From an uncultured Planctomycetaceae bacterium (GTDB lineage: Bacteria; Planctomycetota; Planctomycetia; Pirellulales; Pirellulaceae), in contig CAIPEB010000124.1 in assembly GCA_903863885.1 (NCBI GenBank), forward strand, positions 1 to 54,211: a stretch of DNA of 54,211 nt, written 5' to 3'. Positions 35,917 to 44,073 of this stretch are shown piece after piece. The position numbers and the translations under genes are program-made. Within the stretch, counting starts at the first letter, position 1. Every line of letters starts with the position of its first letter. The notes beneath the pieces are model-generated. The model made no database searches. It was not told the DNA's origin and saw only the letters and a list, made by a program, of their open reading frames with translations.

Positions 35917-36100
35917 GAATCACATTCCTTTGCGGATCACGAATCCGCTGCGCCGCATTTTGGAGGCGCAACGGCACTCGCACTAATAACAACGCGAGGC
36001 CTGACTACGGTCGGTGCTGCGAAAGCCCGACCAAGAGACCAAGTTAAGCAGCGCACAGATGGTACCCGCCGCGTGCCGTCGCGCCGAGGACCTCTTTGAG

Positions 36101-36337
36101 CTACGGGATGGCCACGCCATTCCTGATCAGGCGGCGAAGCAGCACTTCGTTGATGCGACCGCGGAAACGTTCGCGACCATTCAAGACCAGAACGGGCGCG
36201 CAATCCGGCTTGCGCGACGAAACCGGGTACTCGCTTATGTCGCGCACGTCGGGTTCGATGCCAAGTCTTCGCAGCATGGCATGGGCCTCCTCGCAGAGGG
36301 GACAACCCTGCCGCGTATAAAGCACAGCCGTCATCAT
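36101..36337 (-). CDS. Glutaredoxin-like thioredoxin-fold protein
   Basis: A 78-residue thioredoxin-fold protein with the redox pair CPLC (C12, C15) in VLYTRQGCPLCEEAHAML, and a cis-Pro loop at CAPVLVLNG. It belongs to the DUF836/glutaredoxin 2-like type. ATG at 36337 fits GAGGG 8 bases upstream; ATG at 36334 or TTG at 36352 are alternatives. It is the likely neighbour partner of the flavoprotein on the same strand, 184 bp upstream of it, which could suggest a redox pair (inference). Confidence 0.82.
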   Translation of the reverse strand: MMTAVLYTRQGCPLCEEAHAMLRRLGIEPDVRDISEYPVSSRKPDCAPVLVLNGRERFRGRINEVLLRRLIRNGVAIP

Positions 36338-36518
36338 CCGCATATCCCTCAAGAAAGGATGCCGGCAATCTCCCGTTCCTGAAACTAAGGAATGAAAGGC
36401 CCGCAGCCAATAGCTAGTAAGGTTACGCGTGGCATGTTAGTGTGAATTCGTCGGGCCATTCCGCATGGCCGTTTCGACCCACTTCTTCTCCCCAGTCACG
36501 TGTGCCCGGCACTTCCGC

Positions 36519-38168
36519 ATGTCGAACCCGAGCGTGAAGGCATTTGTCGAGTTGATTCAACGCAGCGCGCTCGTGGAGCCAAAGTCGCTGAAACGCACAC
36601 TGCTGGACTGCAAGCAGCACTACGGCGGACAACTTCCCCGCAATGCGGAAGTGGTCGCTCAATGGCTCATCCAGGCAGGCCTGCTGACCTCATGGCAGCG
36701 TGACCGGCTATTCGAACGCCGGCACCGAGGCTTCTTCATGGGCCAGTACAAGCTGCTCGAACACCTGGCCACAGGCGGCATGTGCAACGTGTACGTGGCG
36801 GAACACACGGTGCTCAGGGTCAAGCGGGCGATGAAAGTCCTGCCTCATACCCGAGCGGGCGATTCGTCATACCTCGCGAGATTCGAGCAGGAGGCACGGT
36901 CGCTGGCAGCGATGGAACATCCTAACATCGTGCGGGCTTTCGACCTGGACCGGGATGGGGACCGCCACTACCTGATCATGGAACTGGTCCAGGGCCACGA
37001 CATTTCGCTGCTGGTCGCCAAGCACGGCCCGCTTCCCAGTGCGCTGGCCGCCAACCTGATCACGCAGGCGGCCGAAGGACTGGAGTACGCACATCAACAG
37101 GGCCTGGTCCACCGGGATGTGAAGCCGGCCAACCTGCTGCTGAACAACCGCGGAGTCGTCAAGATCCTGGACCTCGGACTGGCGCTGGTCGCGAACGACG
37201 AAGCCGCCTCGCTCACGCTTCGACACAACGAGAACGTCATCGGAACCGCGGATTATCTGGCACCGGAACAGGCGCTGAACAGCCACGGCGTGGACGCCCG
37301 CGCGGACATCTACGGATTGGGTTGCACGCTGTATTTCGCACTTACCGGGCACCCGCCCTTTCCGGAAGGCACGATCCCCCAGCGCATCGCCAAACATCAG
37401 CACGAGGCGCCGCCCAGCATCCTCATCGACCGCCCGGACTGCCCCGCAGACCTGAATGAAATCTGCATGCGCATGATGCGCAAGAAACCCGAAGAGCGAT
37501 ACGCATCATGCCGTGACGTCGCCAACACACTGGAACGCTGGCTGCAGCATCACGGCGTACTGTCCGGCCTGAACAAGCTGGAAACCGAGGAGAAAGTCGA
37601 ACTGCTCGCCAATGCGGCGGCCGAACAGGCAGCGGCCTGGACCTCCACGGATTATCGCAGTGAAAGCGGCTTCGCATCGGATCGAGCAACCGACCGTTCG
37701 ACGCTACCGCTCAGCAACAACCAGTTCGCCGACCCGCCAGGCGGGACCGCGCCGACCGGCATCAAACAACGGACCGGCGACTCGGATTCCTCTCCGCCGG
37801 CAGCGACCTCCGGAAGTTCGCGAAACGGCTCCGCCCCTCCTGCGGCGACAATCAGCGATCTGGAACTGGAGGCTATTCCTGTCGGCAACGGTTCGTCGCC
37901 CGAGAATGCAGAAGCCGGAACGAGCAGCATCCTCGACGCCGAGCCTCTGCCTCCGCTTCCACCTCCGAAGATCGAACGGCACACCCCGTCAAGCCACGTC
38001 GCTGAACATCTGCCTTCGACGCCGATCCTCATCCAAACACCGCGCTCAGGCGTCCGGCGCTACCGCCGAAAACGGCCTTGCTCTCCACTTCGGGTTTCGT
38101 TGTGGCTCGCCGTTGCCTCCGTCGTTGTGCTCGGACTGGCTGCCGGCATCTGGGCCGCTCTGCGGTAG
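36519..38168 (+). CDS. Membrane-anchored Ser/Thr protein kinase, planctomycete type
   Basis: A 549-residue eukaryotic-like kinase. Residues 1-75 are the planctomycete N-terminal extension (FVELIQRSALVEPKSLKR, LIQAGLLTSWQRDRLF). The kinase domain (about 77-345) has a Gly-rich loop ATGGMCNVYVAEH, Lys K106 in AMKVL, HRD at 198-200 with VKPANLLL, DLG (218-220) instead of DFG, and APE (248-250). A long Ser/Pro/Thr-rich linker (about 380-520) follows and one C-terminal membrane helix (LWLAVASVVVLGLAAGIWAAL), so the catalytic part faces the cytoplasm. The start is uncertain: ATG at 36519 fits relatives, ATG at 36465 adds 18 residues; neither has a good Shine-Dalgarno. Confidence 0.92.
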   Translation: MSNPSVKAFVELIQRSALVEPKSLKRTLLDCKQHYGGQLPRNAEVVAQWLIQAGLLTSWQRDRLFERRHRGFFMGQYKLLEHLATGGMCNVYVAEHTVLRVKRAMKVLPHTRAGDSSYLARFEQEARSLAAMEHPNIVRAFDLDRDGDRHYLIMELVQGHDISLLVAKHGPLPSALAANLITQAAEGLEYAHQQGLVHRDVKPANLLLNNRGVVKILDLGLALVANDEAASLTLRHNENVIGTADYLAPEQALNSHGVDARADIYGLGCTLYFALTGHPPFPEGTIPQRIAKHQHEAPPSILIDRPDCPADLNEICMRMMRKKPEERYASCRDVANTLERWLQHHGVLSGLNKLETEEKVELLANAAAEQAAAWTSTDYRSESGFASDRATDRSTLPLSNNQFADPPGGTAPTGIKQRTGDSDSSPPAATSGSSRNGSAPPAATISDLELEAIPVGNGSSPENAEAGTSSILDAEPLPPLPPPKIERHTPSSHVAEHLPSTPILIQTPRSGVRRYRRKRPCSPLRVSLWLAVASVVVLGLAAGIWAALR

Positions 38169-38580
38169 CGGTCTCGCATCTCGGCAATCTCGCAACTTGT
38201 GGCTCGCGGCTCCGAGTACCGTTCCGCAGGCCTGCCTCTTGAGCCGCGATAACTCGACCGTTCGCGTTGCCAATGCAGCGACAGCTATCGCATCGCAACT
38301 CGTTAGCTGAGAACGGACTCTGTATCCAAGCACCCCAAACGGCGGGTATGGCGTGGCAACCTTCGCCCGACGCCGGATTCCTGCCAGCACCGTGTTTCGA
38401 CCAAATTCATGCTTCGCAAGTCGTTTCAGAGAAACCACTTGCCTTGTTCACTTGTTTTTTCATAGGGGCCGTTTCTAGCATGCAGACAGAGCGTTTTTTC
38501 CGACTAGGCGCCGAGGCAAGCGGCGGCGGGATGGCTGGCGATGCGAATCGTCACGTTGAACACTTCGATGAGCAGGCACC
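38169..38580. other. Gene-free 412 bp
   Basis: Only short incidental open frames. A TTGCCT box at 38439-38444 and a T-run before CATAGG (38461-38466) could be a weak promoter for the next gene, but spacing is 16 and the match is poor. No RNA or terminator is recognised. Confidence 0.5.
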
Positions 38581-39258
38581 ATGACACATCACATACGGAC
38601 ACGAAAAGTCTTTTCGAGAACGGCCAGGCGTCATCCGGCTCTGTCCCGCGCCACCCGCAACTCACTCGAGTTGGGTCACCGAGCGCGCGGGGCGGCGTCC
38701 CGCGTGGACCGGTCGCATCTTCCACCGGAGGACTGGCACGAGCCGAATGAAGCCGTCCCGGCCGGGTATCGTATCCGCGTCTACCCGCCGGGGGCGGGTT
38801 ACATCCACGTTGTCACGCCCGAGGAGATCCGGGACCGCCTGGCCCAACTGCCGCGGCACATGGTGGACTCCCTCGAGGTCGTGCAATTGAGCCGAATGAC
38901 GCGGAAGAAGAAGACGTTTCCCTGCTACGGCATGCAGTGGGGAAGTGCGATTTACCTTTACCCGCTCGAAGCGACGCTGGTCGAGGAGTTCGCCAAGCCG
39001 CCGAGGCCGGCCGAGTTTATCGAAGCGCGCATGTACGGCGGGAGATGGGTGCAGGAGGGCGAGGCGTGGAAACTGGTCTGGACCCGGGATTCCATCCGCG
39101 ACTTCTACTTGAACAATGTCCTGCTGCACGAGTTGGGACACGTCATCGATTCGCGCAACGCGAAGTCGCGCGACCGCGAGCGATTCGCCGAGTGGTTCGC
39201 CATCGCGTACGGCTATCTTCCAAGCCGGCGCGGATCTATGCTGAAACCCCGCCGATGA
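38581..39258 (+). CDS. Putative zinc metallopeptidase-fold protein (HELGH)
   Basis: A 225-residue protein of unknown function. Residues 183-187 are HELGH, the zincin HExxH motif, followed by VIDSR and, 17 residues on, E204 in RERFAEWFA, which could be the third zinc ligand (gluzincin-like spacing). The N-terminal 50 residues are Arg/His-rich and not conserved-looking; residues 62-130 form beta strands (RIRVYPPGAGYIHVV, SAIYLYPLEATLV). There is no signal peptide, so it is probably cytoplasmic. The Shine-Dalgarno is weak and a later start is possible. The spacing to the cupin gene (52 bp) allows cotranscription. Confidence 0.72.
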   Translation: MTHHIRTRKVFSRTARRHPALSRATRNSLELGHRARGAASRVDRSHLPPEDWHEPNEAVPAGYRIRVYPPGAGYIHVVTPEEIRDRLAQLPRHMVDSLEVVQLSRMTRKKKTFPCYGMQWGSAIYLYPLEATLVEEFAKPPRPAEFIEARMYGGRWVQEGEAWKLVWTRDSIRDFYLNNVLLHELGHVIDSRNAKSRDRERFAEWFAIAYGYLPSRRGSMLKPRR

Positions 39259-39310
39259 CTGGGGCTTTGGCGGGACATGCCACCTGGGGATTTTGCCGGC
39301 GGAGGATACC

Positions 39311-39640
39311 GTGCAGCGATACTTTATTGACGCCGATGACTGCAAAGCGAAAGCGATTTTCCCCGGGGTGCAAATCCGCACCGCCGCCGGATCGCAGATG
39401 ATGCTCTCCGTGGTCTACTTCGAGCCGAACTCCGTGGTCGAGTCGCATTCGCATCCTCACGAGCAGGTCGGCATTCTGCTGGAAGGGGAATTGACGTTCA
39501 CGATCGGCGACCAGACGCAGGTGGTGTCACCGGGACAGATGTGGTGCATCCCGGGCGGTGTGCCTCACCGGGTCGTGGCGGGACCGAAACGGGCCAAGGC
39601 GCTCGACGTGTTTCATCCGGTTCGCGAGGACTACCTCTAG
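39311..39640 (+). CDS. Small cupin-domain protein
   Basis: A 109-residue single-domain cupin. Motif 1 holds H46, H48 and H50 (ESHSHPHEQVGILLEGE) and motif 2 ends with GGVPHRV (H86), so metal binding is likely. Small cupins of this kind bind sugars or act as isomerases or dioxygenases; the substrate is unknown. The GTG start at 39311 is fixed by GGAGG 5 bases upstream; an in-frame TTG at 39293 would precede that site. Phe/Pro-rich end HPVREDYL is typical. Confidence 0.85.
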   Translation: MQRYFIDADDCKAKAIFPGVQIRTAAGSQMMLSVVYFEPNSVVESHSHPHEQVGILLEGELTFTIGDQTQVVSPGQMWCIPGGVPHRVVAGPKRAKALDVFHPVREDYL

Positions 39641-39768
39641 GTCGCCCCGGGCGAGGTCCGCAGGGACGCTCTCCGGCACGCGGCACTTGTCGCCATGCAT
39701 TGGTTCGACTAGGATTTCTCGTGGAATGTTCGGCGGTAACTGCTTCCGATTCGTGTTGATCACACACA

Positions 39769-39880
39769 GGGCGGCAGGTCCGCCGGCCAAAGCGGTGCTG
39801 CGGCACCGGGCAAATAACCTGCTCCCGTTCGTGGCTGGGCTTTGGGCGAAGAACAAACATCCTGACCGGTAGTGTCACAG
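39769..39880 (+). repeat. Dispersed intergenic repeat, copy B
   Basis: Ungapped partner of 1557-1668 (83 of 112 bases identical by hand count). The start again folds: GCGGCA pairs with TGCTGC using one G-T pair around the inner CCGC/GCGG stem. Identity is highest in the first 30 bases (28 of 30) and in the last 20. It lies between the cupin gene and the DAHP synthase leader. Confidence 0.6.
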
Positions 39881-39890
39881 TTATCTGTGA
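39875..39890. promoter_or_regulatory. 16-bp palindromic element before the aromatic leader
   Basis: TCACAG (39875-39880), TTAT, CTGTGA (39885-39890): perfect arms ending 18 bases before the leader-peptide ATG. It may be an operator or the first hairpin of the leader RNA. No convincing -10/-35 pair was found here. Confidence 0.4.
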
Positions 39891-39908
39891 GAATTTGCGG
39901 CTGTCGAT

Positions 39909-39983
39909 ATGTTGCGTTCCTGCTTCGGCTATTTTTGGTTTTACTTTAGCCCTCGGGTTCGAGGGGCCGGAGGAGGTTCATAA
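39909..39983 (+). CDS. Aromatic-rich leader peptide of the DAHP synthase gene
   Basis: A 24-codon ORF (ATG at 39909, TAA at 39981-39983) too short for usual gene calling. Residues 6-13 read FGYFWFYF: three kinds of aromatic codon, seven in eight positions (TTC, TAT, TTT, TGG, TTT, TAC, TTT at 39924-39947). The stop codon falls in the loop region of the second hairpin of the leader. The 110 bp between the terminator and the next ATG leads to a DAHP synthase, the first enzyme of aromatic amino acid synthesis. This is the layout of pheA/trp-type attenuators, where ribosome stalling on scarce charged tRNA decides termination. The ribosome-binding site is weak (GAGAA at about 15 bases), the main doubt. 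Confidence 0.75.
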   Translation: MLRSCFGYFWFYFSPRVRGAGGGS

Positions 39984-40008
39984 CCTCGATCCAGAATCGG
40001 AAAGATTC
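39950..40008 (+). promoter_or_regulatory. Leader hairpins of the putative attenuator
   Basis: Three perfect small stems follow the aromatic codons: CCCTCG/CGAGGG (39950-39955 with 39960-39965), GAGGTT/AACCTC (39973-39978 with 39982-39987) and GAATC/GATTC (39994-39998 with 40004-40008). TCGGGTTC (39953-39960) can alternatively pair with the terminator segment GGACCCGA (40020-40027), with one G-T pair, and GGG beyond an internal loop with CCC at 40014-40016; that would sequester the 5' arm of the terminator. Confidence 0.55.
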
Positions 40009-40010
40009 AC

Positions 40011-40048
40011 AAGCCCTGAGGACCCGAAAGATCCTCAGGGCTTTTTTT
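40011..40048 (+). terminator. Intrinsic terminator / attenuator before DAHP synthase
   Basis: AAGCCCTGAGGA (40011-40022) pairs perfectly with TCCTCAGGGCTT (40032-40043) around a 9-base loop, and the run of seven T (40042-40048) follows at once. It lies 110 bp before the DAHP synthase ATG, on the same strand, with no other gene in between, so it is placed to stop transcription of that gene. Confidence 0.9.
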
Positions 40049-40158
40049 GTTGAAGGGCAATCTTGCTGCACGGCCTTTTTTGCTGCAGCTTCAGTTGCTG
40101 AGGTGCGGGCGTAATTCAGAAGATTGCGGGCAGCGTCTTCGGAGGGAGGAGTTTTTCG

Positions 40159-41172
40159 ATGATTGTTGTGATGCAGAAGGGCGCGACACGGGACCAGGTT
40201 GACCATATGGCTCAGCGCGTGGAAGAGCTGGGACTTAAGAGCCATGTGATCATCGGGGCCGAGCGGACGGTGATTGCCGCGATCGGCGAGAAACGCGATT
40301 ACATGCGAGACGCTTTGGAGAGCGGTCCGGGTGTCGAGCGGGTGGTGCCGATTCTGGCTCCATTCAAAGTGGCCAGCCGCGAAGTGAAGCCAGAGCCGAC
40401 ACAGGTGGTGGCCGGCAGCCTGCGGGTCGGTGCGGGCACGATCGGCGTGATTGCGGGTCCCTGCTCGGTCGAGAACGAGGCACAGATTATTGAGACGGCC
40501 CATCGCGTCAAGGCCGCCGGCGCAACGGCACTGCGCGGCGGGGCTTTCAAACCCCGCACCAGTCCGTACAGCTTCCAGGGACTGAAGGAAAAGGGCCTTG
40601 AGATGCTGAGCCGGGCCCGCGAGGAAACGGGGCTCGCGATCGTCACCGAAGTCATGGCGCCTGAGGACGTGCCGCTCGTGGCACAGCACACCGACGTGCT
40701 GCAGGTGGGCGCCCGCAACATGCAGAACTACCGCCTGCTGGAAGTCGTCGGCCAGTCGAAATGCGCGGTGCTGCTGAAGCGAGGCCCCGCGGCAACGATC
40801 GAAGAACTGCTGCTGGCCGCGGAGTACATCCTCGACGGCGGCAACAAGAACGTCATGCTCTGCGAACGGGGCATCCGCACTTTCGAGGCCCACACTCGCT
40901 TCACGCTGCCGTTGGCCACGGTCCCGTACCTGCACAATCTGACTCACCTGCCGATCGTCGTGGATCCCAGCCACGGCACCGGCCACACGTACCTGGTGCC
41001 GGACATGGCGGCCGCGGCGGTTGCTGCTGGAACGGATGGCCTGATCATCGAGGTGCATCCGGATCCCGAGCACGCGATGAGCGACGGATACCAATCGCTG
41101 GACTACCGCCAGTTCGAGGAGACGATGGAAAAGTGCCGCAAGATCGCCAACGTGCTCGGCAAGACGATGTGA
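40159..41172 (+). CDS. aroF: 3-deoxy-7-phosphoheptulonate (DAHP) synthase, type I beta with regulatory domain
   Basis: First enzyme of the shikimate pathway, joining phosphoenolpyruvate and erythrose 4-phosphate; 337 residues. Residues 1-70 are a ferredoxin-like regulatory domain as in the Thermotoga enzyme, where it binds Tyr/Phe. The catalytic barrel follows: [51 protein letters not shown] and [13 protein letters not shown] strong GGAGGGAGGAG precedes the ATG. Expression is probably controlled by the leader and terminator upstream, which together with the N-terminal domain would give both transcriptional and allosteric feedback. Confidence 0.97.
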
Positions 41173-41897
41173 CGCAACCGGACTCGGTGATTCCGACCGC
41201 GCAACCGGCTTCGCACCGACCGCCATCCGTCCGGGAACTGCCCATACCGGGCGGATGGCAGGAAACGCGAATGACGATCGCGGGGCGCGAATTCGATTTG
41301 CTGCTGCCGGCGGATCCCGACATGTTTCTCGAGCAACTCGAGGAACGGGCCGCTCAAGGCGAAGCCACGCCCGACCCGTACTGGGCCCGTCTCTGGCCGT
41401 GCGCGATTGAATTAGCCGCGTCGATACTGGATGCCTCGTGGACCCGCGGCGAAGCAGCATTGGAAATCGGCTGCGGGGTCGGCCTGGCAGGTCTGGCCGG
41501 ATTGCACCGGGGACTGAATGTCACGTTCAGCGATCTGGAAGCGACGGCGGTTGCCCTGGCACGGGAGAATGCGCAGCGAAACGGATTTCCCGACTCGCAG
41601 GGCGTTTCGTTCGATTGGCACGAACCGCCGCGCCTGACCTATCCGATCATCCTCGCCTCGGACGTGCTGTACGACCTCAAACTCCACGACGTGCTGCTCT
41701 CGCTTCTGGATGCCATGCTGCCCGGGACCGGCATTTGCTGGATCGGCGATCCGGGGCGAGTTCATGCGGAACGATTCGTGCAATCCGCGCGAGCACGGGG
41801 CTTTGCCGTGAGTCTGCATGACGCCCGGGGAAATGAGCTTCGCAAACCGCACACCGGCCGGTTTCAGAGGCTTGTTTTGACTCGCGGTGATTCCTGA
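41169..41897 (+). CDS. Class I methyltransferase, METTL/ETFB-KMT-like
   Basis: A 242-residue protein. DPYWARLWPCAIELAASIL followed by the SAM motif ALEIGCGVGLAGLAGLHRG and VTFSDLEATAVALARENAQRNGF is characteristic of the protein-lysine/nicotinamide N-methyltransferase-like family (Pfam Methyltransf_16). PIILASDVLYDLKLHDVLL is the post-motif segment. The GTG start at 41169 overlaps the stop of the DAHP synthase gene (GTGA), so translation is coupled; the larger open frame from 40761 lies inside that gene. The substrate is unknown; a link with the shikimate pathway is not evident. Confidence 0.85.
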   Translation: MTQPDSVIPTAQPASHRPPSVRELPIPGGWQETRMTIAGREFDLLLPADPDMFLEQLEERAAQGEATPDPYWARLWPCAIELAASILDASWTRGEAALEIGCGVGLAGLAGLHRGLNVTFSDLEATAVALARENAQRNGFPDSQGVSFDWHEPPRLTYPIILASDVLYDLKLHDVLLSLLDAMLPGTGICWIGDPGRVHAERFVQSARARGFAVSLHDARGNELRKPHTGRFQRLVLTRGDS

Positions 41898-41904
41898 GCG
41901 GCGG

Positions 41905-44073
41905 TCATTTCTTCGCCGCCCGCAATTGGCCCATCAGCGCGGCGAGCGATTGCTGCTGGGCCTGCGTCACGGCCGCCAGCAGACACTGGCTGGGAGCGTC
42001 GAATCGCAGCACTCCAAGGCCGCCATGTTCCCTGAGTGCATCTTCCCCCAGATTCGCTTTGGCCTTGTCGATCAACTGCTCGCCGGTCATTCCGCCCGCG
42101 ACGAGATCCTTGGCGGGGTAGAACTCCAGTTCAATCCGCTTGTCGAGCACCTGCCGCGAGGTGACCTGAAACGTCGATTCATCCACGATGCGATAGGTCA
42201 AATCCAGCGGACCGAGCAGGATGCGCAACGCCTCCGACAAGGGCTGGTTTCGCACATTGCACGGCACCTGGGCGCCGGGGTTCCAACCCATTTCCCCAGC
42301 CCCGTCCCAGTCGATCAAGATCTCCGTCGCGGACTCTTTCGCCAGTCGGCGGACGATCGTCGAAAGCCGCTCCGGGCGAGGACAGGTCAATGTCACGGCC
42401 GTCTTCAGCTTCGACTGGGCTTTCTCCGTGCGCGGAGTCAATTGAAACAGCGCCGGATCCATCTTGCCGCGGGGCGTCAATCCCTGAGCCACGCGCAGCT
42501 TCTCGCAGAAGGCCAGGACCTGGTAAAGGACCGGTTCCTCGTTCTTCACCAACAGCGATTGATCGCGGGTCTGCAGGGTGCCCGTACCGCCGGCTGCCTT
42601 CCAGGTTTCGGGGGCGATCAGTTCCCGAATCAACTGCCCGATCTGCTCCAACCGGACAGCATCGTTGTTGGTCAGGTCGCCCAGTTCAAACGGCACCTCA
42701 CGCGTGCGGGCCCCCTTCGCATCGACGCGGGTCACAAACACCTGCCGCTCCATCACCGTGTATCCCAACCCGAGCCCTTTGAGCGTCTCGCCGAGCAGAT
42801 CGCCGACCGTCACCTTGGTCTGGCGGGCGGTGACGGGCGTTTCGGGTGAAATATGCAGCCAGGGCAGAACATCGGGGTCAAGCGTGACCGGGATCGTGCT
42901 GTAGTCGGAGACAAAACTGAGGAAATCCACCAGCGGGACTTCGTTGAAGTCGATCTGCTGTATCACGTCAGCCAGGCGAGATTCCATGTCCACCACCACC
43001 GGATCGGGACGAGGCACGGGCGGCCGAGCGGGCAGGTCCGGCGAAAAACCGCCGGCCGGCGGTATCGCCCCTTCCGCAACGGGTGATTCGCCAATCACGG
43101 AGCCGAACGCCTTCAGCGTTTCCCGGAGCGAAGCGGCGGAGGACATCGAGTCCGCCGCGTCCTTTGCCGCCGGCTTGGCCTCGGCGGGCATGGATTCGGC
43201 CGGTTTCGTTTCCTCCGGCTTGGCCTCGGCCGGTTTCGGCTCGGCAGGCTTTGATTCTTCGGGCTTGGGCTCAGCGGGTGTCGGTTCGGCCGGTTTGGCA
43301 GTGCCGGGCGTGGGTTTCTCGACCGATGGCGGCCCGAGGTCCGACGGCACTTGCGCCGTCGGCGACGCCGGTTCGGGCTTTGCTTCTGGACTCGGCGCCG
43401 GCGGGTCCGCCTTGCCTGTCTTCGGATTCTCGGTCTTCGAATGCTCCGGCGTTGCCGGAGTTTCCTGTCCCTTGGCGGGCGCGGGAGTCGGGGGCGACTT
43501 CGCGGCCGAATCGCGTTTGGCCACTTCGCGCGGGTTGCCCGTCGTCCGGTCGTCCGGTCTGCTCATCCACATGAACAGCAGCACGGCCATGACAATGCCG
43601 CTCACACCGGTCAGAGCGAGAATCAGCCTTCCCCGCCACAAGGCGACCTGCGGCAAATCGGGCTCCTCATCCGGCAACGCAAGTCCGGCATCCAGAGGCG
43701 TGGGGGCAGGTTCCTCGGATGACTCCCCGGCCGTCGCGTCGGTCAGGTCACCGGATTGTCTCGCGGCCGTTTCGCTGGCCTGTTGTCCGGCCGCGGAACT
43801 GTCTACAAAACCATAGAGCGTGGGATCCTCGACGGTGTCCGCGAGATTTGCGGCCGATTCGGAAGTGCTGCTGCCTGCGGGAGGCACTGGTTCAGTCTTG
43901 GGCCGAGGAGGAGGCGAGGCCGTGCGGGGCGCTGCGTTTGATTCATTCGAGGGCGGCTCGACCAACACCATGCTGCCGCACTTGGGGCACGTCAGGATCT
44001 GGCCGATCGCCGATCGATCGCGGACCCGCAACGTAGTCTGACACGTGGTGCAGGCAATAGCGAACGGTTCCAC
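41905..44073 (-). CDS. Large membrane protein with zinc ribbon, PAEPKP repeats and STN-like domains
   Basis: A 722-residue protein. C8, C11, C29 and C32 form an N-terminal zinc ribbon (ACTTC...LTCPKCG). One membrane helix lies at about 148-170 (RLILALTGVSGIVMAVLLFMWM), giving a cytoplasmic N-terminus. Residues about 250-320 are low-complexity Lys/Pro/Glu/Ala repeats of PAEPKPEE type that could span the periplasm. From about 365 two regions (VIQQIDFNEVPLVDFLSFVSDYSTIPVTLDPDVLPWL and KLKTAVTLTCPRPERLSTIVRRLAKESATEILIDW) resemble the STN/secretin N-domain fold. It could couple envelope and cytoplasm. GTG start at 44073 with AAAGGA upstream. Converges 7 bp from the methyltransferase. Confidence 0.75.
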   Translation of the reverse strand: MEPFAIACTTCQTTLRVRDRSAIGQILTCPKCGSMVLVEPPSNESNAAPRTASPPPRPKTEPVPPAGSSTSESAANLADTVEDPTLYGFVDSSAAGQQASETAARQSGDLTDATAGESSEEPAPTPLDAGLALPDEEPDLPQVALWRGRLILALTGVSGIVMAVLLFMWMSRPDDRTTGNPREVAKRDSAAKSPPTPAPAKGQETPATPEHSKTENPKTGKADPPAPSPEAKPEPASPTAQVPSDLGPPSVEKPTPGTAKPAEPTPAEPKPEESKPAEPKPAEAKPEETKPAESMPAEAKPAAKDAADSMSSAASLRETLKAFGSVIGESPVAEGAIPPAGGFSPDLPARPPVPRPDPVVVDMESRLADVIQQIDFNEVPLVDFLSFVSDYSTIPVTLDPDVLPWLHISPETPVTARQTKVTVGDLLGETLKGLGLGYTVMERQVFVTRVDAKGARTREVPFELGDLTNNDAVRLEQIGQLIRELIAPETWKAAGGTGTLQTRDQSLLVKNEEPVLYQVLAFCEKLRVAQGLTPRGKMDPALFQLTPRTEKAQSKLKTAVTLTCPRPERLSTIVRRLAKESATEILIDWDGAGEMGWNPGAQVPCNVRNQPLSEALRILLGPLDLTYRIVDESTFQVTSRQVLDKRIELEFYPAKDLVAGGMTGEQLIDKAKANLGEDALREHGGLGVLRFDAPSQCLLAAVTQAQQQSLAALMGQLRAAKK

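Follow-up and report, generated by a model that had tools for sequence, protein, structure and literature searches.

A candidate ribosome-mediated attenuator with mixed phenylalanine, tyrosine and tryptophan codons before DAHP synthase in Planctomycetota

Introduction

What is the role of a 24-codon open reading frame (ORF) crowded with aromatic codons that precedes the gene for DAHP synthase (3-deoxy-7-phosphoheptulonate synthase) in a planctomycete genome? The window, by which we mean the whole 54,211-nucleotide stretch of DNA analysed, is contig C124 and belongs to an 11.0-Mb genome whose relatives are planctomycetes. The best reading of the leader is a ribosome-mediated transcription attenuator, to which we assign a probability of roughly 93%. 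The parts of such a device, their conservation in other genomes, the covariation of their pairings and a geometry computed by folding are described below.

Organization of the locus

The short ORF with its aromatic run stands as a sequence-only reading of this DNA had described it, as do three small stems (39950–39965, GAGGTT/AACCTC and GAATC/GATTC), a 12-bp terminator stem followed by seven T residues, and a DAHP synthase gene downstream (Table 1). The alternative pairing proposed there, of 39953–39960 with 40020–40027, which uses up the 5′ arm of the terminator, also exists and extends further, through GGGGC (39963–39967) with GCCCU (40013–40017). Region 2 overlaps the 3′ arm of hairpin 1:2 (39960–39965). 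The complete antiterminator duplex amounts to −26.2 kcal/mol, and none of 100 shuffles was as good. The locus thus places codons for the products of the pathway in a short ORF upstream of a biosynthetic gene, as expected of an attenuator.

Rfam, whose families include Trp and Phe leaders and the T-box, was searched with positions 36000–44000; at E values up to 10 four matches appeared, all of them away from the leader. A T-box or a riboswitch was considered and set aside. A simple consensus scan of 39400–40300 returned neither a sigma-70 promoter nor a terminator; the terminator was missed because the scan allows loops of up to 8 bases and this loop has 9. Farther downstream, a methyltransferase-like ORF overlaps the 3′ end of the DAHP synthase gene, and its true start probably lies near the end of that gene, since its Pfam match covers only part of the ORF.

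Table 1 Features of the leader region in the window, with two further leaders from the same genome
Feature	Position	Strand	Remarks
Cupin ORF	ends 39640		5′ of the leader region
Candidate −10 box GAGAAT	39889–39894	+	weak; TGT before it (extended −10 type); no good −35
Leader peptide ORF	39909–39983	+	24 codons, MLRSCFGYFWFYFSPRVRGAGGGS, then stop (39981–39983)
Control codons F G Y F W F Y F	39924–39947	+	composition kept in relatives
Region 1, 5′ arm of hairpin 1:2 (CCCTCG)	39950–39955	+	adjoins the run; compensatory changes
Region 2, antiterminator 5′ arm	39953–39967 (39953–39960 and 39963–39967)	+	TCGGGTTC and GGGGC
Region 3, antiterminator 3′ arm	40013–40027 (40013–40017 and 40020–40027)	+	common to the terminator 5′ arm
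Intrinsic terminator (3:4)	40011–40048	+	12-bp stem 40011–40043, seven T 40042–40048; compensatory changes
DAHP synthase	40159–41172	+	NCBIfam PRK08673, E 1.5e-143; proposed regulated gene
Methyltransferase-like ORF	40761–41897	+	Pfam match at residues 225–322
Ile-rich leader MRRPIGIIGIICAQA and terminator before cimA (citramalate synthase), L323	C437, 6305–6405	−	window's genome
GTG-started Leu-rich leader VISLLLTPVLLLAADGRP, then hairpin and T-run, before leuA, L403	C394, 3800–4700		window's genome

Distribution of the leader

DAHP synthase protein is present in 114 of 117 relatives and, in a sample of genomes spanning the phylum, in 292 of 294. Upstream regions were collected for 256 loci, and 228 that were non-redundant and at least 300 nt long were kept; the named set comprises 80 of 569 loci encoding a relative, and L002 (a distant second match) and L003 (a duplicate of L001) were removed before counting. 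Under a strict criterion, an ATG-started ORF of 12–60 amino acids with at least six Phe, Tyr or Trp per nine codons in the last 400 nt, a leader is found in 91 of the 228 regions and in 0 of 1,140 dinucleotide shuffles. With at least five such codons in the last 400 nt, the figures are 114 of 228 regions and 12 of 1,140 shuffles. The leader ORF is an observation far beyond chance. A terminator belonging to the cupin ORF is conceivable here, and the leader could then be a chance ORF that happens to lie beside it; with these counts, and with −10 and −35 signals of their own before about half of the leaders, that account is scarcely credible.

Divided by batch, the strict criterion selects 44 of 77 regions from the same genome, family or order, 27 of 74 from the named set, 7 of 16 from the same class, 11 of 41 from the same phylum and 2 of 20 in the last batch. 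In the last batch, 7 regions belong to second copies of DAHP synthase, whose genomes also have a closer first copy, and the other 13 to best copies, most of them in distant genomes. A leader precedes none of the 7 second copies and 2 of the 13 best copies (L251 and L252).

An ATG-started ORF with at least five Phe, Tyr or Trp per nine codons, together with a terminator, was found within the 450 nt searched in 117 of the 228 regions. The terminator lies a median of 28 nt past the leader stop in these 117, all of which have one; its presence is informative for the 92 leaders with at least six aromatic codons, where, as in the window, it stands between leader ORF and gene, and was demanded of those with exactly five. 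A leader is absent from 111 of the 228 regions by this caller, which accepts ATG starts only and misses GTG-started leaders, such as the one before leuA.

In the anammox-type family f52, three of four regions carry a leader (L230, L231 and L233; not L225), and hydrazine synthase alpha, a marker of anammox bacteria, is encoded in two of the three genomes with a leader. The three f52 leaders are rich in Tyr, such as NFYYFRYYYRKG. A locus titled Phycisphaerales (L103) also has a leader, and a second with the same title (L109) has a candidate farther upstream, beyond the 450 nt searched and hence outside the 117. The leader is also present in a cultured planctomycete, Roseimaritima sediminicola (L043). 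The three Kuenenia-titled loci of the named set (L050, L056 and L069) all lack one; these may be mislabelled, because they match at 68–70 percent. By sequence comparison the element appears to reach deep planctomycete lineages, the anammox-type family included, which is new here. On a tree of 119 DAHP synthases, 68 of them with a leader, leader presence requires 24 changes, and 100 shuffles on the same tree require a mean of 38.6 (range 30–46); the leader therefore appears to be inherited along this tree, with repeated losses or misses.

A run of codons for three amino acids

The runs of the 117 leaders contain 410 Phe, 215 Tyr and 138 Trp codons, at 5–9 aromatic codons per nine, and Trp occurs in 102 leaders. 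All three amino acids occur together in 94 of 117 runs, with 72.0 ± 4.3 expected from random dealing of the residues, and runs lacking Trp (17 against 32.3 expected) or Tyr (5 against 14.1) are scarce, although related leaders are non-independent and the significance of this test is overstated. The preferred order is F-W-F-Y-F: Phe occupies the last position of the run in 95 of 117 leaders, position −2 in 82 and position −4 in 55, with Trp at −3 in 39 and Tyr at −1 in 46. Order and spacing differ by lineage, and Phe, Tyr and Trp substitute for each other.

Peptide arrest with tryptophan is known from TnaC, and a favoured residue order could likewise reflect an aromatic nascent peptide that stalls the ribosome by itself, perhaps with bound free aromatic amino acids, rather than a shortage of charged tRNA. 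We consider such arrest improbable: the order and spacing vary between lineages and the three residues interchange, Leu and Ile/Val versions precede leuA and cimA (see below), and, given the geometry, a free-amino-acid signal would be expected to switch the gene on by its end product.

The leaders are 17–48 amino acids long and variable in peptide sequence, and their conserved properties are aromatic composition and base pairing. This pattern speaks against the ORF encoding a functional small protein, with the terminator acting as a constitutive filter. A trans-acting leader peptide does exist, peTrpL of S. meliloti, as described in the available part of that report (PMC7298713), and the small-protein account nevertheless seems to us very improbable.

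Two further features of the leaders were observed. Across 68 loci, the TTT:TTC count for Phe is 172:69 in the runs and 67:251 in the corresponding DAHP synthase genes; this inverted choice may heighten the sensitivity of stalling or prevent the RNA from folding. An AGGAGG-like, Shine–Dalgarno (SD)-like stretch, GGAGGAGG, lies near the end of the leader ORF in the window (39969–39976), and a comparable stretch (at least five of six) is found at the leader end in 56 of 117 leaders, against a shuffle mean of 21.3 and maximum of 34; our guess is that it holds the ribosome at the stop codon.

Covariation of the alternative pairings

Across the 117 leaders, the antiterminator ranks within the best 5 of 100 shuffles in 85, beats all 100 in 45 and lies outside the best 5 percent in 32. 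For covariation, the 117 leaders were reduced to 81 by a filter on length and group, of which 41 were chosen for similar architecture (alignment A1). Compensatory changes occur among these 41 in all three pairings, 1:2, 2:3 and 3:4. Covariation in 1:2 and 3:4 together scores 0.292 against 0.147 in shuffles, and in 2:3 it scores 0.210 against 0.144, values that hold for the 41 chosen leaders and that kinship can inflate; in both cases none of 500 shuffles is as high, and the score drops at every slide of the alignment. The share of paired cells likewise exceeds all 500 shuffles, for hairpin 1:2 plus terminator and for the antiterminator separately, with 90.7 percent of cells paired in the terminator, 78.3 percent in the antiterminator and 71.1 percent in hairpin 1:2, the innermost pair of which forms in just 12 of the 41. 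Distant leaders (L048, L074, L077, L079 and L082) keep the antiterminator with other letters.

The sequence-only reading had staked itself on an alignment of the regions upstream of DAHP synthase genes, and was to be abandoned if ORF or terminator proved unconserved in relatives. The comparison revealed the opposite: a short ORF rich in Phe, Tyr and Trp codons is conserved together with terminator and antiterminator, the latter two being mutually exclusive, and the stems covary through compensatory changes.

Predicted effect of ribosome position

Each transcript was folded up to the terminator loop with a model ribosome masking −15 to +12 nt from the first base of the A-site codon, at equilibrium and on truncated RNA rather than kinetically. 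The median number of antiterminator pairs in the 117 leaders is 11.7–11.9 for a ribosome placed 2 to 6 codons short of the run's end. It falls to 9.0 on the final codon of the run, to 7.0 one codon beyond and to 3.9 five codons beyond, reaching 2.8 at the stop codon, and is 9.9 without a ribosome. Part of the loss at the stop arises because hairpin 1:2 is allowed only there, all RNA upstream being masked as well for stalls and the footprint alone for the stop. A ribosome at the stop leaves fewer than 5 pairs in 78 of 117 leaders, and fewer than 2 in 52 that have at least 5 when stalled; 39 of 117 keep at least 5. In the window, 12.9 pairs form in free RNA, 7.6 with the ribosome at the last run codon and 1.9–2.4 three to five codons later; the sixth and seventh codons past the run bring a renewed rise, to 6.8 and 5.1, and the number at the stop is 2.7.

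These pair counts indicate a computed switch of structure between run and stop. In the model, the run ends at the point from which the ribosome starts to disrupt the antiterminator. Read-through is predicted for ribosome-free RNA, a default ON state.

Transcription and translation start

In 59 of the 117 leaders a −10-like hexamer ends 6–7 nt 5′ of the ATG. Other ATGs of these regions have a hexamer so placed in 10 of 378 cases, and DAHP synthase starts in 1 of 117. Divided by batch, the leaders with it number 40 of 56, 13 of 36, 0 of 10 (same class), 4 of 13 and 2 of 2. Among the 59, a −35 match (at least four of six) occurs with a spacer of 16 in 16 leaders and of 17 in 21, with at most 5 at any other spacer tried. 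SD matches of at least five of six are scarce before the leader ATG (5 of 117) and commoner before the DAHP synthase start (49 of 117). For the group, these signals place a promoter for a start at the AUG with little sign of an SD, and because of both the −10 placement and the scarcity of SD sequences, the AUG is probably the transcription start in roughly half of the 117, whose transcripts would then be leaderless; this is new here.

For the poor ribosome-binding site that had been named as the weak point of the attenuator, leaderless transcripts are the probable explanation in many relatives. That explanation carries over to the window less directly. Because the sole −10-like box there (four of six) lies 14 nt 5′ of the leader ATG, a short 5′ untranslated region is as likely as a leaderless transcript.

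Related leaders before leuA and cimA

A model of the element (R1) has one strong match in the window's genome, at the leader itself (107 bits), the next-best being at 29 bits before cimA. Matches with E up to 0.01 occur in 48 of 57 genomes of the order, some of them weak and away from DAHP synthase. Twenty secondary matches were read: a leuA-like gene follows 9 of them and a cimA-like gene follows 4, as judged by the start of the protein (three checked, the others among family matches), and the remainder are cut off, unclear or, in one case (L332), another aromatic leader. Leu-rich leaders (at least five of eight codons) precede leuA at 20 of 30 loci against 2 of 300 shuffles, and Ile/Val-rich leaders precede cimA at 17 of 29 related loci against 2 of 290. 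In the crossed comparison, an Ile/Val-rich leader precedes leuA at 1 of 30 loci and a Leu-rich leader precedes cimA at 0 of 29. Comparable leaders thus appear to precede leuA (Leu) and cimA (Ile/Val), which is new here.

No Trp-rich leader (at least three Trp in eight codons) was found before trpE at 30 loci, that of the window's genome (L277) included. One trpE region (L261) has an ATG-started ORF with six Phe, Tyr or Trp in nine codons (MRRFHLGPAWIPSQLTSTFFFASHYYYTTYVSLGF), the sole case in the 30.

Proposed mechanism

In the proposed attenuator, RNA polymerase would start shortly before the leader ATG, or at the ATG in many relatives, with a ribosome translating the aromatic run behind it. 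Should Phe-, Tyr- or Trp-tRNA run short, the ribosome would stall on uncharged tRNA within the run and leave region 2 free to pair with region 3, so that no terminator forms and DAHP synthase is transcribed. With all three tRNAs ample, the ribosome would reach the stop codon and cover part of region 2; region 1 would pair with the rest, the 3:4 terminator would form, and transcription in vivo would end near 40048. The gene would respond in this way to each of the three amino acids.

About as likely as not is a broader proposal, that of an ancient, phylum-wide attenuator in which a run translated from a leaderless transcript acts as an OR gate, reading three tRNA pools at the committed step of the pathway, is ON by default without translation, and belongs with its Leu (leuA) and Ile/Val (cimA) sisters to a general amino acid control of Planctomycetota. 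If the attenuator before DAHP synthase is real, planctomycetes, whose cell organisation has been debated, need close coupling of transcription and translation, and the integration of three amino acids by one ribosome becomes directly testable.

Comparison with known systems

In the attenuators of E. coli, the 1:2, 2:3 and 3:4 pairings are mutually exclusive, the leader ORF has an SD sequence, its stop codon lies between regions 1 and 2, and termination occurs without translation. In the planctomycete leader, by contrast, the stop follows region 2, and ribosome-free RNA is predicted to antiterminate. The E. coli attenuators also sense one amino acid each, against the three proposed for the Phe/Tyr/Trp run here. 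The trp, pheA and pheST attenuators of E. coli carry their control codons in a leader ORF, as here, according to the available part of a recent account (PMC11802643).

The closest known case is aroR of Corynebacterium glutamicum, likewise a leader peptide with aromatic codons (Phe-Tyr-Phe) before a DAHP synthase gene, aroF, the transcription of which rises when Phe is limiting (PMC4046766; PMC11802643, reporting Neshat 2014; both available in part). It belongs to another phylum and is described, in the available text, without Trp and with no effect of Tyr availability (PMC11802643), whereas 102 of the 117 planctomycete leaders contain Trp. Transcripts that begin at the leader AUG, as predicted here, are reported for trpL of S. 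meliloti and for leuL, trpL and ilvL of Streptomyces lividans (PMC7298713, PMC8079986 and PMC10117765); as far as the available parts of these reports go, they concern other genes, single amino acids or the branched-chain group, and other phyla.

From the portions available, a 2005 comparison reports no conserved RNA structure before the Phe or Tyr operons of Actinobacteria (PMC1262725), and a 2010 survey restricts demonstrated leader-peptide systems to Proteobacteria and Actinobacteria, apart from its own histidine system in Firmicutes (PMC2965389). No earlier description of such an attenuator in Planctomycetota was found among the open-access papers listed, in agreement with the sequence-only reading, which knew of no example in the phylum. 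Ribosome-mediated attenuation is itself known; what is new is the phylum, the three-way mix of codons and the predicted default-on state.
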